A stretch of DNA of 36,166 nucleotides from Candidatus Kapaibacterium sp. (GTDB lineage: Bacteria; Bacteroidota; Ignavibacteria; Kapaibacteriales; UBA4661). The stretch is from contig RDXM01000158.1 in assembly GCA_004292595.1 (NCBI GenBank), positions 1 through 36,166 of the forward strand. The letters run 5' to 3'. Below, piece after piece: positions 4,680 to 35,531 of the stretch. The position numbers were made by a program, and so were the translations under genes. Each line of letters begins with the position of its first letter. Position 1 is the stretch's first letter. The notes below the pieces were generated by a model, which was given only the letters and a program-made list of their open reading frames with translations, was not told where the DNA came from and did no database searches.

Positions 4680-4700
4680 CAGCTGTATCAATACAAGAGA

Positions 4701-4819
4701 GGACTTTCGCACAATGTGCTTTTGAAGCTCACAGACAGAAATGTCTGTGCCACCAAAGCCAGTATCTATCAGTTTTGTAGTGGCACAGGCATTCTTGCCT
4801 GTGAGGTGTGCGAACGTCC
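4701..4819 (+). repeat. Family B palindromic element, copy B1 (long form)
   Basis: A 119-bp element whose ends form an imperfect 13-bp inverted repeat (GGACTTTCGCACA and TGTGCGAACGTCC). It holds two hairpins: CACAGACA/TGTCTGTG at 4730-4749 and CACAGGCA/TGCCTGTG at 4783-4802. It is almost the exact reverse complement of the element at 10844-10961. It lies in the untranslated leader of the acyl-CoA dehydrogenase gene and makes the upstream frame look open by chance. Confidence 0.85.
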
Positions 4820-10843: not shown

Positions 10844-10961
10844 GAACTTTCGCACACCTCACAGGCAAGAATGCCTGTGCCACTACAAAACTGATAGATA
10901 CTGGCTTTGGTGGCACAGACATTCCTGTCTGTGAGCTTCACAAGCACATTTTGCGAAAGCC
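10844..10961 (-). repeat. Family B palindromic element, copy B2 (long form)
   Basis: A 118-bp element nearly identical to the reverse complement of B1 at 4701-4819. It has the same end repeats (GAACTTTCGCACAC and TTTTGCGAAAGCC) and the same two hairpins in opposite order, CACAGGCA/TGCCTGTG and CACAGACA/TGTCTGTG. It begins 25 bases after the S41 protease stop. The region 10820-11190 holds only this element, A2 and the terminator at 11081-11122; I see no gene there. Confidence 0.85.
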
Positions 10962-10967
10962 CTAATC

Positions 10968-11072
10968 TATACTAAAAAAGGTTTATTGCTTCAGATGTAG
11001 TCCACCTTTGAGGTGGACTACATCTCAACGCCTTCACTTTTTGATATGCAATTTTTAACCACTTTTAGTATA
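10968..11072 (+). repeat. Family A MITE-like palindromic element, copy A2
   Basis: A 105-bp element with perfect 10-bp terminal inverted repeats, TATACTAAAA and TTTTAGTATA. If the outer TA is a target duplication, insertion into TA dinucleotides is implied, as for IS630/mariner-type transposases. The centre is a perfect 15-bp hairpin, AGATGTAGTCCACCT and AGGTGGACTACATCT, with loop TTG. It sits between convergent genes, six bases from B2. Confidence 0.87.
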
Positions 11073-11080
11073 CAATAAAA

Positions 11081-16398: not shown

Positions 16399-16468
16399 CC
16401 ATCAAGGACAGGCGTAATTTCTCACTTTTTGCCCTGCTTTCAAAGGAAAAAGTCGTAGATTGAAGGGC

Positions 16469-16536
16469 GCAGACAAGAGTGTCTACGCTACCATCAGGCT
16501 TTATGGGGCTTCGGTAGAGCGGACACTCTTGTCTGC
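16469..16536. repeat. Long imperfect inverted repeat (hairpin)
   Basis: GCAGACAAGAGTGTC (16469-16483) pairs perfectly with GACACTCTTGTCTGC (16522-16536). Pairing extends inward through partly matched CGCTACC/GGTAGAGC. It resembles family B in its CAGACAAGA core but has a different stem, so it may be a third palindrome family. It lies in the divergent gap between the T9SS protein and the ABC transporter genes. Confidence 0.7.
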
Positions 16537-16697: not shown

Positions 16698-16776
16698 ATT
16701 AAATGGATAAACTTCAACAATATTTAGTGGCACAGACATTCCTGTCTGTGCGTGTTGGTGCGGGCTTCAGGCGACG
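16698..16776 (+). repeat. Family B element, partial copy B3
   Basis: It matches the reverse complement of copy B4 over AATTAA-TGGATAAACTT, the hairpin CACAGACA/TGTCTGTG (16731-16750), and GCGGGCTTCAGGCGAC. The second hairpin arm of the 78-bp unit is missing. Together with the two preceding repeats it fills the gap 16399-16820, in which I see no gene. It ends 44 bases before the ABC ATPase start. Confidence 0.7.
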
Positions 16777-20200: not shown

Positions 20201-20304
20201 TATACTAAAAAAGGTTTAGTGTTTAGATGTAGTCCACCTCAAAGGTGGACTACATCTCATCTCCTTCACTTTTTGATATGCAAGTTTTACCCGTTTTTAG
20301 TATA
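20201..20304 (+). repeat. Family A MITE-like palindromic element, copy A3
   Basis: A 104-bp element with TATACTAAAA and TTTTAGTATA ends and the central hairpin AGATGTAGTCCACCT/AGGTGGACTACATCT. It differs from A2 mainly in having CAA instead of TTG as the loop, so the hairpin is inverted relative to the element ends. It lies between the LRR gene and the ion-channel gene. Confidence 0.87.
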
Positions 20305-20358
20305 CCTTGTCTCTACGTGTTCTCACGAACAAACATCTGTACGGTTTATCGCCCGAAA

Positions 20359-22633: not shown

Positions 22634-22739
22634 AGTGGCTTGAGACTTCTTGTCTGTGTTTGTCGCCTGAAGCCCGCACTAACACTCACAGACAAGAATA
22701 TCTGTGCCACTGAAGTCAAAAAAGTTTATCCACTTAATT
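22634..22739 (-). repeat. Family B element, copy B4 (78-bp unit plus flank)
   Basis: The 78-bp core, 22634-22711, has outer inverted arms of 25 bp. The arms begin AGTGGCTTGAGACTTCTTGT and end AAGAATATCTGTGCCACT. A 28-bp centre resembles that of the copy inside the TonB receptor gene. The flank to 22739 (AAGTTTATCCACTTAATT) is shared with B3. Otherwise the gap 22560-22881 shows no gene and no clear promoter. Confidence 0.78.
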
Positions 22740-31496: not shown

Positions 31497-32852
31497 ATGA
31501 AATTGAAGATTATCAAGTATTTCGCCCAAACAAGCAGTAGTGCGCCTCTTGCGGTTTTTCGTGTACTGTTTGGTGCGGCAATGGTGCTGAGTACGGCGCG
31601 GTTTCTCGCTTTGGGCTGGGTGCGTGAGCAGTACATCGCTCCAAAAGTCCATTTTCCGTACTACGGTTTTGAGTGGATAAAGCCTTTGCAGGAATACGGC
31701 TTGCCAGAAGCGAGTATGTATGCGGTCTTTGGCGCAATGTTGCTTGCGGCACTTGGAATTATGCTGGGTGCGTGGTATCGTGTGGCGAGTGTGGCGTTTT
31801 TCCTTGTGTTCACCTACGTCGAACTCTTAGATAAAACTTACTACTTGAACCACTACTACTTCGTCAGCGTAATGAGTTTTGTGCTGATGCTGCTTCCAGC
31901 GCATCGCACGTTTTCGTTGGATATTCGCCGCAAACCCGCACTGGAGCGTGATTCCGTGCCGCGCTGGATGATTGATGTAGTGAAATTTCAAGTAGGAATT
32001 GTGTATGCGTTTGCGGGCATTGCAAAAATCAACAGCGATTGGCTATTCCGTGCAATGCCGCTTGCAATCTGGCTTCCAGCGAATGATACCATGCCGATTG
32101 TGGGCTGGGCGTTGCGCTACAAAGAAACCGCGTATTTGTTTTCTTGGGTGGGAATGCTCTTTGATTGCACCATTCCGTTCTGGCTTTCGTGGAAACGCTC
32201 ACGGGTACTGGCTTATACGGCTGTTGTTGTCTTTCATACACTAACAGGCTGGATGTTTCAAATTGGTGTTTTTCCGCTTGTAATGTGTCTCGCAACGCCT
32301 ATATTTTTTTCGGAAGAATGGCATAAGCGCGTGGTTGCTTGGTTGCAGCATTCTCAAGCAACACAGACAAGAATGTCTGTGCCACTAGAAAATGAAAAAA
32401 AATGGCGGTGGACTCGGTATATTCTCATTACGCACTGTTTCTTTCAACTCCTGATTCCATGCCGCATCTGGCTCTACGATGGCAATATGTTTTGGACCGA
32501 AGAAGGCTACCGCTTCGGCTGGCGCGTGATGCTGATGGAAAAAGCTGGCGACGCAACATTTTTCGTAAAAGACGCACAAACAGGGCGCGAAGGTGTGGCT
32601 CTGAACCGCGAGTTTTTGAACACGCATCAAGAAAAGCAAATGGCAATGCAGCCCGATATGATTTTGCATTTTGCCAAAGTGTTGAAAAAACACTATGCAG
32701 CGCACGGCATGGCAAATCCTCGTGTTCGCGCTGAGGTGTATGTAACGCTGAATGGTCGTCCGAGCCGCTTGTACATTGATTCAAGCATAGATTTGACGCG
32801 GCTTCAGGATGATTTTTCTCAAAAAAAATGGATTCTTCCTTTTCGTGAATAA
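31497..32852 (+). CDS. HTTM domain membrane protein (vitamin K-dependent gamma-carboxylase-like)
   Basis: A 451-residue polytopic inner-membrane protein with about eight hydrophobic segments. The HTTM region (about residues 10-275) has the family pattern LAVFRVLFGAAMVLSTARF, YYLNHYYFVSVMSFVLMLLPAH, FQVGIVYAFAGIAKINSDWL and VVFHTLTGWMFQIGVFP. A C-terminal soluble domain of about 130 residues follows. HTTM proteins are homologous to gamma-glutamyl carboxylases, but the bacterial activity is mostly unknown. Residues near 289-297 (TQTRMSVPL) are encoded by a half copy of the family B repeat, so this linker was changed by insertion. Its stop codon touches the start of the TonB receptor gene (TAAATG), which implies translational coupling. 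Confidence 0.85.
   Translation: MKLKIIKYFAQTSSSAPLAVFRVLFGAAMVLSTARFLALGWVREQYIAPKVHFPYYGFEWIKPLQEYGLPEASMYAVFGAMLLAALGIMLGAWYRVASVAFFLVFTYVELLDKTYYLNHYYFVSVMSFVLMLLPAHRTFSLDIRRKPALERDSVPRWMIDVVKFQVGIVYAFAGIAKINSDWLFRAMPLAIWLPANDTMPIVGWALRYKETAYLFSWVGMLFDCTIPFWLSWKRSRVLAYTAVVVFHTLTGWMFQIGVFPLVMCLATPIFFSEEWHKRVVAWLQHSQATQTRMSVPLENEKKWRWTRYILITHCFFQLLIPCRIWLYDGNMFWTEEGYRFGWRVMLMEKAGDATFFVKDAQTGREGVALNREFLNTHQEKQMAMQPDMILHFAKVLKKHYAAHGMANPRVRAEVYVTLNGRPSRLYIDSSIDLTRLQDDFSQKKWILPFRE
32361..32386 (+). repeat. Family B half element, copy B5, inside the HTTM coding sequence
   Basis: ACACAGACAAGAATGTCTGTGCCACT (described here by its arms CACAGACA and TGTCTGTG) matches one arm of the 78-bp unit. It is read in frame as TQTRMSVPL in a hydrophilic linker between membrane and soluble regions, with no disruption of the gene. 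Confidence 0.85.
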
Positions 32853-35531
32853 ATGAACTTTTTATACGTACAAATATTCTTTTCTTCAGTGGCACAGACA
32901 TTCTTGTCTGTGAGTATTGGTGCATGGTTCAAATATAAAACACAGACAAGAATGTCTGTGCCACTATTGTTTCTTTTATGTTGCATTCCCGTAATGGCTC
33001 AAGAAACCTCACCATTACGCGGTTCGGTTGTAAATGGGAAAGCTGTTGCGGGTGCAAGAATTATGTTGAATGGCAGTAACAATGCGCTCTTTGGCGCAAT
33101 TTCCCAAGCAGACGGTACATTTGCAATTCCCTCTGTGCCGCATGGAATCTACCGTTGTACGGTGTCGGCGGCATTGTATGATACACTGCGAATGAGCCTG
33201 ACCATTCCAATAGAACAACCTCTAACGCTCCGCTTGAAAGAACGCGCCTTTACCACAAAGCAAGTAACGGTGCGAGATAGAAACGACAACGGCATGGGAA
33301 TTGGTGCGCTGCGTGGGGTGGAAGGCGCGGCAATTTACGAAGCAAAAAAAACGGAAGTCATTCGCTTGGACGACATCACGGCAAATAAAGCCGCCAACAA
33401 CGCCAGACAAGTATTTGCGAAGGTTGCGGGCTTGAATATCTGGGAAAATGATGGTTCGGGCTTGCAACTGAACATCGGCGCTCGCGGGCTTAGTCCCAAT
33501 CGCACAGCGAACTTCAACACGCGGCAAAATGGCTACGACATCGCCGCCGACCCGCTTGGTTATCCCGAAAGCTATTACACGCCGCCAGTGGAAGCACTCT
33601 CCACAATAGAAGTAGTGCGGGGTGCAGCGAGTTTGCAGTACGGAACGCAATTTGGCGGGATGCTCAATTTTATTTTCAAGCGTGGCGCGGAAGACAAACC
33701 AATCGAGGTTTCAAGCCGCCTCACGGGCGGTTCGTTTGGTTTTCTCAATTCGTTTACGTCGGTTGGTGGAACAATTTCTTTGGGCAATGATAACCCAAAC
33801 GACGCATCAAATCTTGCTTCTAGCCAATTCATACCAACGCTCAATTACACCGCCCTGTACCAATTCAAGCGCGGCGACGGCTGGCGACCCAATTCCGGTT
33901 TTTGGCAGCACCAAGCATTTGCCTCGCTTCAATGGAAACCCGCACGGAATCTCACTCTGACGAGCGATTATACCTTCATGCAATATCAAGCACAGCAACC
34001 AGGCGGCTTGACTGATGTTATGTTTGAGCAGAACCCGCTCCAGTCCACGCGCGCGAGGAATTGGTTTCAGGTGAAATGGAATTTACTTTCGCTGACGTTA
34101 GATTATCGCATTTCCGACGAAACCCGCTTGGAAAGCCGCTCGTGGGCGACATTCACAGGACGCGACGCGCTGGGAATTTTCGAGCGCATCAACGTTATCG
34201 ACTTTGGGCAAAATCGCACCATGATACGCGACGTAAACCAAAATCTTGGCAATGAAACCCGCATCGTGCATCACTACACGCTTCCGCTCTTCGGACACGA
34301 CAAGCCTTCGACCGCGCTTGTCGGTGTGCGGCTTTTCAAGGGTTGGACGGAAAAACAGCAAGGCGAGGGGGATAATTCCTCGTTTCCGCGCTTTCAGTAT
34401 CGCAATCCGAGCAATCTGGAAAATTCGGACTACATTTTCCCAAGCAGCAACGTTGCGGCGTTTGCCGAGCATATTTTTTCGATAACGCCTGAACTCAGCA
34501 TCACACCTGGTGTTCGTTGGGAATTTATTGGCACCTACGGCGATGGTTATTTCAAAAATCGCGTGTTCGATTTTGCAGGAAATATGGTTGCCGAAATGCG
34601 CACCAATGAAACGATTAACCGCGAACGCTCGTTTGTGCTCGCGGGCGTGGGTGTGAGCTACAAACCCCGCATGGAATCTATCGTGGATGCTCGTGGTGCG
34701 ATGCCCGTTGCACTCGAAGTGTATGGAAATTTTTCGCAAAATTATCGTGCTATTGAGTTCTCGGATGTTCGGATTGTCAATCCAAATTTTGCCGTCAATC
34801 CAAACTTGCAGGATGAACGTGGCTTCAATGCTGATGTGGGAGTGCGCGGGCGCGTGGATGGCGTGTTGTACTGGGATATTTCCGCATTTGCAATGAACTA
34901 TGACAAGCGCATCGGGCTTGTGTTGAAGGCAGATGCGCCGCCCTTGTATTTGCCGTATCGCTATCGCACGAATGTGGCGGATTCGCGTACACTCGGCATA
35001 GAATCGTTGGTTGAGGTGGATGTGTGGAAATGGTTTTTTGCGCGAGAGATTGAAGGAATTGGCGGCAACACAAGCAATGGCGGCTCTCGCAGCGTATCAG
35101 TCTTTGTGAATACTTCCTTCACCGATGCTCGCTACATCAACACCGACGACCTTTCCATTTTGAACAAAGAAGTAGAACTCGTGCCGCCGACGATGCTGCG
35201 CACAGGCGTAACGTGGCGTGAATACGCGCTTTCGGGAATGTTTCAAGCAACAGCGCAGTATTCCTACGTCCACCGCCATTTCACCGATGCGACCAATGCT
35301 ATTCGCACCTCGACGGCGGTGAACGGCATTATTCCAAGCTACGCGGTTACAGATATTTCGACAAGCTATAAATATCTTGGAGACGGCATCAAATGGACGG
35401 TTGAAGCGGGAGTGAATAATGTGTTTGATGCACGATATTTTACGCGCCGCGCCGAAGGCTATCCTGGACCTGGCATTATTCCTGCTGAGGCGCGAAGTGT
35501 GTACGTTACGCTGGGCGTTACGTTGTTCTGA
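32853..35531 (+). CDS. FecA-like TonB-dependent outer-membrane receptor
   Basis: An 892-residue receptor that would import ferric chelates with TonB energy. Domains: a signal region, a carboxypeptidase-regulatory-like domain (about residues 53-145; SVVNGKAVAGARIML), a plug (about 160-275; VAGLNIWENDGSG, NIGARGLSPNRT, IEVVRGAASLQYGTQFGGMLNFIFK), and a 22-strand-type barrel ending VYVTLGVTLF with the terminal Phe needed for membrane assembly. The start at 32853 abuts the HTTM stop (TAAATG). An in-frame 78-bp repeat (32888-32965) expands the signal region; the internal ATG at 32952 would give a short signal MSVPLLFLLCCIPVMA. Which start is used is open. The substrate is probably ferric citrate or a similar siderophore, judged by family and context. 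Confidence 0.92.
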   Translation: MNFLYVQIFFSSVAQTFLSVSIGAWFKYKTQTRMSVPLLFLLCCIPVMAQETSPLRGSVVNGKAVAGARIMLNGSNNALFGAISQADGTFAIPSVPHGIYRCTVSAALYDTLRMSLTIPIEQPLTLRLKERAFTTKQVTVRDRNDNGMGIGALRGVEGAAIYEAKKTEVIRLDDITANKAANNARQVFAKVAGLNIWENDGSGLQLNIGARGLSPNRTANFNTRQNGYDIAADPLGYPESYYTPPVEALSTIEVVRGAASLQYGTQFGGMLNFIFKRGAEDKPIEVSSRLTGGSFGFLNSFTSVGGTISLGNDNPNDASNLASSQFIPTLNYTALYQFKRGDGWRPNSGFWQHQAFASLQWKPARNLTLTSDYTFMQYQAQQPGGLTDVMFEQNPLQSTRARNWFQVKWNLLSLTLDYRISDETRLESRSWATFTGRDALGIFERINVIDFGQNRTMIRDVNQNLGNETRIVHHYTLPLFGHDKPSTALVGVRLFKGWTEKQQGEGDNSSFPRFQYRNPSNLENSDYIFPSSNVAAFAEHIFSITPELSITPGVRWEFIGTYGDGYFKNRVFDFAGNMVAEMRTNETINRERSFVLAGVGVSYKPRMESIVDARGAMPVALEVYGNFSQNYRAIEFSDVRIVNPNFAVNPNLQDERGFNADVGVRGRVDGVLYWDISAFAMNYDKRIGLVLKADAPPLYLPYRYRTNVADSRTLGIESLVEVDVWKWFFAREIEGIGGNTSNGGSRSVSVFVNTSFTDARYINTDDLSILNKEVELVPPTMLRTGVTWREYALSGMFQATAQYSYVHRHFTDATNAIRTSTAVNGIIPSYAVTDISTSYKYLGDGIKWTVEAGVNNVFDARYFTRRAEGYPGPGIIPAEARSVYVTLGVTLF
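32888..32965 (+). repeat. Family B 78-bp palindromic element, copy B6, in frame in the receptor signal region
   Basis: Two 25-bp arms in perfect inverted orientation (AGTGGCACAGACATTCTTGT at the start, AAGAATGTCTGTGCCACT at the end) around a 28-bp centre homologous to that of B4. The length is exactly 26 codons and the frame has no stop. Removing it joins MNFLYVQIFFSS to LFLLCCIPVMAQ, a normal signal peptide. Confidence 0.9.

Follow-up and report, generated by a model that had tools for sequence, protein, structure and literature searches.

Background

Rickettsia palindromic elements (RPEs) are coding palindromes that lie in frame. The family described here likewise includes in-frame coding palindromes, but it is mainly extragenic. 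Bacterial MITEs are short elements with TIRs and a target duplication, and they have no coding capacity of their own. A short TIR element with a target duplication was found here as well; its centre, however, is a REPIN, and no autonomous parent was found among the exact TIRs.

REPIN/RAYT systems, in the available parts of their descriptions (Bertels and Rainey 2011, PMC3116915; Nunvar 2010, PMC2817692), resemble the present family in their GTGG-footed palindromes (such REPs appear in Table 1 of PMC2817692), inverted spaced doublets, extragenic bias, hundreds of copies and, as a candidate partner in the genome, a RAYT with REPs of this type on its flanks. In contrast to these systems, the repeat here lies at the centre of a TIR unit of 151 bp with 9-bp duplications (in the sister species), the 28-bp spacer is fixed and conserved, the RAYT lies inside the recG frame, and two REP-rich species have no detectable RAYT of the recG type. 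Intragenic REPs have already been published, many of them in DNA repair genes. In the available part of that text (PMC3733652), in-frame REP dimers code for 20-30 residues, as here, the N-terminal cases are treated with caution as doubtful, and RecG is not named among the REP-decorated proteins. Those proteins carry REPs alone, whereas here a complete RAYT domain is also found in frame in RecG.

Data sets

The window is the whole stretch of DNA analysed, 36,166 nucleotides of a Candidatus Kapaibacterium genome, referred to as G000. The sister species is G005 (assembly JAAFIV01, Ignavibacteria bacterium; receptor locus L031). The G000 sample comprised 717,602 bp, that is 36 stretches together with the window. 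As the stretches of G000 and G005 were picked partly for REP matches, densities are biased, the split between genic and intergenic positions less so. The sample came partly from protein-translated matches. Gene calls were made with a codon-usage caller built for this analysis.

Anatomy and abundance of the palindrome

The palindrome at positions 32888-32965 (plus strand) is a REPIN core of 78 bp in the leader of a TonB receptor ORF. It consists of a left REP arm at 32888-32912 (plus), a 28-bp spacer at 32913-32940 (plus) and an inverted right REP arm at 32941-32965 (minus), the two arms being 25 nt each and 100% complementary. The left arm has a GTGG foot and the self-complementary CACAGACA-TTCT-TGTCTGTG, and each arm is a small hairpin itself. 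As RNA, the whole element forms a 25-bp stem of -49.1 kcal/mol (z -7.0), and none of 200 shuffles was equally stable. The arm coordinates and the ORF at 32853-35531 confirm what the earlier note had described, a 78-bp unit with perfect 25-bp arms that is free of stop codons in the receptor frame.

The same note had considered that this unit might be absent elsewhere in the genome, which is clearly not so: 577 REP arms were found in G000 at up to 2 mismatches, against 0 with a reversed-pattern control. Among the other seven genomes of the genus, 578 arms were counted in G005, 263 in G007, 189 in G001, 97 in G006, 2 in G002 and 0 in both G003 and G004. The search of 33 other relatives gave a single match in one of them and none in the rest. 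The family arm, GTGGCACAGACATTCTTGTCTGTG, is self-complementary with a GTGG foot, and thus has the GTAG/GTGG foot and the imperfect palindrome of a REP.

At up to 4 mismatches, the 113 arms in the G000 sample make up 46 pairs and 21 singles. The pairs are inverted doublets with a preferred spacing, as in REPs and REPINs: 41 face inward and 5 outward, and 31 of the 41 inward pairs equal the window copy in length. Their spacers are mostly versions of AGTGTTGGTGCGGGTTTCAGGCGACAAA, with which the spacer of the window copy agrees at 18 of 28 positions in the canonical orientation. The family consensus is 78 bp long and open in four of its six frames. The 26 codons without a stop, which had been presented as a property of this insertion, are therefore real but belong to the family as a whole; they need no explanation particular to this gene, and any copy beside a gene will by default look in frame.

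The location of 62 elements was determined, 5 of the 67 being left out because they lie less than 150 bp from the end of a stretch. The repeat is mainly extragenic, as REPs and REPINs are, with 53 elements intergenic, 2 partial and 7 inside called genes; 296 of the 4,028 bp of elements fall within called genes, in a sample that is 86.4% coding. The seven inside genes are three arms in recG, one arm in the HTTM gene (32362) and three elements at extreme 5' gene ends. The 78-bp palindrome is thus a REPIN-type unit, and its family numbers hundreds of copies in this genome of the Ignavibacteria.

The receptor leader

The TonB-dependent receptor ORF at 32853-35531 (plus strand) codes for 892 amino acids with CarboxypepD_reg and TonB plug domains (Pfam); nothing in this analysis supports its earlier designation as an iron receptor. 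Codons 1-49 form the leader, and the predicted mature start, placed by eye, is Q50 at 33000. The gene upstream (31497-32852, plus) is HTTM / vitamin K-dependent carboxylase-like, with an HTTM and a vitamin-K gamma-carboxylase lumenal domain (Pfam). Its TAA directly precedes ATG 32853, so the abutting receptor start seen from the sequence alone holds, as does the internal ATG, which was found at 32952 in the right arm. According to the gene caller, the receptor begins only after the palindrome, at 32994. The 25-bp hairpin is situated between the HTTM stop and the receptor leader, with ATG 32952 buried in the stem.

The receptor of G005 carries the element at the same site, with no net indel over 60 codons and the frame kept, from which the receptor copy is dated before the split of the two sister species. 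The left arm of G005 resembles a variant arm at 22 of 25 positions and the consensus at 18 of 25. Comparison of the two species shows 11 non-synonymous changes and 1 synonymous change in codons 1-16, 2 and 2 in codons 17-39, and 6 and 3 in codons 40-49. Both ATG 32952 and GTG 32910 are conserved in G005.

A nucleotide-level empty site, such as the earlier note had proposed to look for, was not found; the next member of the genus, G007, lacks the N-terminal domain of the receptor, and synteny between the window and G005 is broken around most other window elements. The distance between the HTTM gene and the receptor was therefore used instead, the HTTM gene being directly upstream of the receptor in many relatives. 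Alignment within the first 75 residues was obtained for 64 of 99 loci, and 37 were used, leaving out the sister loci L031 and L114 and those not aligned from residue 41-44. From the HTTM end to receptor residue 41, the median of these 37 relatives is 41 bp (30 of 37 within 16-76), and G005 has 123 bp, or 45 after subtraction of 78. Furthermore, of the 43 non-sister loci whose alignment starts at residue 41-44, 12 have a frame that closes within the next 15 codons upstream, compared with 40 codons here. The spacing fits an insertion into an older receptor leader whose start lay immediately after the HTTM stop, and we infer such an insertion. If the 26 residues were ancestral, as the earlier note had allowed, close relatives should all carry them: the closest (G005, 92% identity) does, but the more distant ones do not fit carriage.

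The insertion may have been larger than 78 bp. Besides the TIR described below, further outer flanks recur and were distinguished by eye as REPIN subtypes B and C, which are labels of this analysis. The 30-bp right flank of the window copy resembles the outer flank of subtype C with a score of 10, reached in 0 of 200 shuffles and in 0 of 150 random genomic 30-mers, and the inserted part may thus include the hydrophobic core of the leader. The left flank bears a weak resemblance to the flank of another subtype (5 of 200 shuffles as high), and the window copy has no intact 151-bp shell.

We regard it as probable that a mobile REPIN, of the kind that in sister-species copies forms the core of a 151-bp MITE, entered the ancestral signal peptide of this receptor before the two species separated, kept the frame and was tolerated. 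The earlier proposal of an in-frame mobile palindrome in the signal peptide region is supported to this extent, the repeat being abundant across the genome and apparently missing at this site from relatives other than the sister species. The insertion would be harmless because its length is a multiple of three with four of six frames open, and because it lies in the part that signal peptidase removes. The element would encode a KYKTQTR-MSVPLL stretch ahead of the core LLFLLCCIPVM, which has the highest hydropathy, and would offer GTG 32910 and ATG 32952 as start codons beside the old ATG 32853. With any of the three starts, the residues of the element probably precede the hydrophobic core and are cut off before Q50, taking the cleavage site assigned by eye. 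Most likely, then, the element now encodes part of a cleaved leader and possibly its start codon. The RNA hairpin probably couples or damps translation of the receptor and, were translation coupled, ribosomes coming from the HTTM stop could melt it. A repeat that is usually extragenic can in this way turn into protein sequence, its stop-free length divisible by three making it survivable in linkers and leaders.

It is also quite possible, though short of an even chance in our judgement, that the palindrome lies in a 5' untranslated region, that translation begins at ATG 32952 or GTG 32910, and that the open frame from 32853 is incidental. Both of these codons are conserved in G005, four of six consensus frames are open anyway, and an open frame also runs through several other elements situated 5' of genes. 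The available text of PMC3733652 cautions that REPs described as intragenic at N-termini are in many cases extragenic. With 11 non-synonymous changes against 1 synonymous change, codons 1-16 lend no support from purifying selection to a start at the upstream ATG; part of their divergence is due to the arm variant in G005. A start at 32952, however, would leave a 16-residue leader without positive charge, and the leaders of relatives begin close behind the HTTM stop, which points to ATG 32853 as the old start. Retention of the frame in both species likewise argues for translation through the element.

Two other REPINs of G000, L161:3581-3656 and L161:10836-10911, are found in the same frame just before the leader-like sequence of long ORFs, where the ATG of the arm may be the start.

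The TIR unit and its target duplications

A scan of the G000 and G005 samples gave 26 TIR pairs within 4 kb, 25 in G005 and 1 in G000, all of them 148-159 bp long and 18 exactly 151 bp. The TIR of the 151-bp unit is CTTTGTACACGACAAAAC. Two arms are recognisable inside 15 of the pairs, and one arm inside 11, where the second is a variant arm. When the flanking 9-mers of the 26 pairs were compared, 203 of 234 positions agreed, as against a mean of 74.6 and a maximum of 104 in 1000 re-pairings; 13 of the 26 pairs have perfect 9-bp target duplications. For two of the G005 copies (L216, L238) the corresponding G000 sites are empty, and the duplication is visible. The intact copies in G005 therefore sit at the centre of a TIR MITE, 151 bp long, which duplicates 9 bp of its target. 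The window copy does not show the combination of TIRs and a constant target duplication that was seen in G005 and in a single copy of G000.

Among inward pairs, the TIR matches on both sides in 14 of 67 in G005 and in 2 of 40 in G000, and the tail GAAGCCTGATT is present (at least 9 of 11 positions) in 37 and 11 pairs, respectively. No autonomous parent of the MITE was seen, the 59 exact TIRs in G005 and G000 including no inward pair at a transposon-like distance. Such a composite of REPIN core and TIR shell, with its 9-bp duplications, is relevant to the unsettled mechanism of REPIN movement.

The classical REPIN-RAYT explanation, in which the RAYT is the sole agent of spread and the TIR shell plays no role, appears unlikely. 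The GTGG foot and the inverted doublets agree with it, as does a RAYT flanked by the same REP arms in the recG gene of G000, G006 and G007. The 9-bp target duplications make a RAYT doubtful as the sole mover, since IS200-type transposition involves no TIR and no larger duplications according to the available part of PMC2817692, so that neither feature would be expected. Moreover, G005 and G001, with 578 and 189 arms, have no match to the recG RAYT at an E-value of 1e-8.

A RAYT domain in the recG frame

A search of G000 for Y1 transposases gave a match within a frame of 1060 codons, whose ORF (C139; L157:5979-9125, minus strand) codes for 1048 amino acids. It has the RecG wedge, DEAD, Helicase_C and RecG C-terminal domains (Pfam), and at about residues 560-690 also Y1_Tnp, with 34.9 bits (cut-off 23), and REP_Tyr_transpos, with 74.6 bits, below the cut-off of 80. 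The same arrangement is found in G006 (L185) and in G007 (L187/L175), where recG is split over two contigs at a repeat and both parts have the layout of the other two. By eye, all three RAYTs retain the HUH motif and a tyrosine where one is expected. The ends of the insert in recG are coded by REPs, VAQTFLSV at the start and QTRMSVP at the end.

The stretch from DEQHRFG to MSATPIPR measures 270 residues in G000 and 242 in G006 with the RAYT. It has 36 residues in G001, 32 in G002, 37 in G003, 32 in G004, 46 in G009 and, in four genomes farther removed, 26-41; in G005 it has 82, holding a different palindrome without a RAYT. At this site the RAYT is thus absent from the five genus relatives G001-G005. 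A match to the recG RAYT at 1e-8 was obtained in 8 of 123 genomes of the order, and a REP_Tyr_transpos match in 100 of 148 genomes of the phylum. Among the matches listed in the phylum search, two lie in frames of more than 500 codons, those of G000 and G012. By Pfam, Y1/RAYT-like domains also lie in frame with an Eco57I methylase (L202:1-2055, minus, G091), a DUF1156 protein (L205:1-2706, minus, G012) and another Eco57I methylase (L177:1303-3189, minus, G001).

Tentatively, and with more doubt than confidence, these sequences may be read as a host-embedded, intein-like RAYT that sits between the RecG DEQH box and SATPIPR, is joined by linkers made of REP arms and is produced with RecG as one protein. 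The REP arms would then be portable stop-free parts, serving as linkers in RecG and the HTTM protein and as start codon and n-region of leaders (in the receptor, possibly also at L161:3581 and L161:10836). The in-frame RAYTs in Eco57I-type and DUF1156 proteins of the order would mean that embedding took place more than once. If this is true, a single protein combines a helicase of replication forks with the HUH transposase of the genome's own repeats, and translation of the RAYT as an internal RecG domain would make the long-suspected link between RAYTs and the replication fork directly testable. The available text of PMC6006769 sets unexpectedly long RAYT proteins aside as fusions or annotation errors, and mentions RecG solely through a reference on IS911. 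A RAYT inside RecG was not found in the literature searched, which was mostly without subscription papers, and its absence from print is not thereby established.

The in-frame copies in the receptor, the HTTM linker and the three recG arms would suit a coding repeat like the RPEs, under selection to enter genes, but as a description of the family this is very improbable and was rejected, since 53 of 62 elements are intergenic although a sample taken partly from protein-translated matches should favour in-frame copies, three of the seven inside genes are at extreme 5' ends and three are the recG trio, and the anatomy is that of REPs and REPINs with four of six consensus frames open.

Turnover at the repeat sites

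Flanks of 13 G000 REP sites were matched in G005; one (L152:256) had a low score, was judged a repeat artefact and was left out. At the 12 usable sites, the REP is common to both species in 5, a CCCTCACCCC-type palindrome stands in G005 in 4, and neither is present in 3. Conversely, flanks of 15 of the 118 G005 elements were found in the G000 sample, 5 of them with the REP in both. The CCCTCACCCC...GGGTGAGGG palindrome was located at G000 REP sites in L154:9457-9548, L186, L207:1676-1911, L207:4101-4231 and L247:7918-8067, all in G005, and recG is an additional site beyond the 12. Within G005 proteins it occurs in frame twice, in the HTTM linker and in the RecG linker. Strict copies number 14 in G005 and 2 each in G000 and G006, and the remaining five genomes of the genus have none; with so few copies, the coincidence with REP sites is striking.

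Other repeats in the window

In the window, 9 REP arms were found at up to 3 mismatches, compared with 0 in 100 shuffles. A single in-frame arm at 32362-32386 (minus strand; TQTRMSVPL, from residue 289) forms part of the linker between the HTTM (14-275) and lumenal (305-450) domains, where the sister species has a different palindrome. Another single arm, at 16727-16750 (plus), is intergenic according to the gene caller, as is the arm of a partly decayed REPIN at 22687-22710 (minus), which is missing from the aligned G005 site. An outward-facing REP pair at 4730-4803 lies at the 5' end of a called gene and has a near-copy at 10860-10933. The units around them (4700-4817 and 10846-10963) are inverted copies of each other (118 nt, 96%) with the spacer CAAAGCCAGTATCTATCAGTTTTGTA, and occur on other contigs too.

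A separate repeat, roughly 100 bp long, is present in three copies, at 774-879, 10967-11073 and 20207-20305; its ends are TATACTAAAAA-like and a AGATGTAGTCCACCT palindrome lies at its centre. At 16466-16536 the window contains a REP of a second type (GGTAGCGCAGACACTCTTGTCTGCGC), whose shell has GGACTTTCGCAAAA-like ends and which occurs also at L154:10481 and at L236:105 and 5502.
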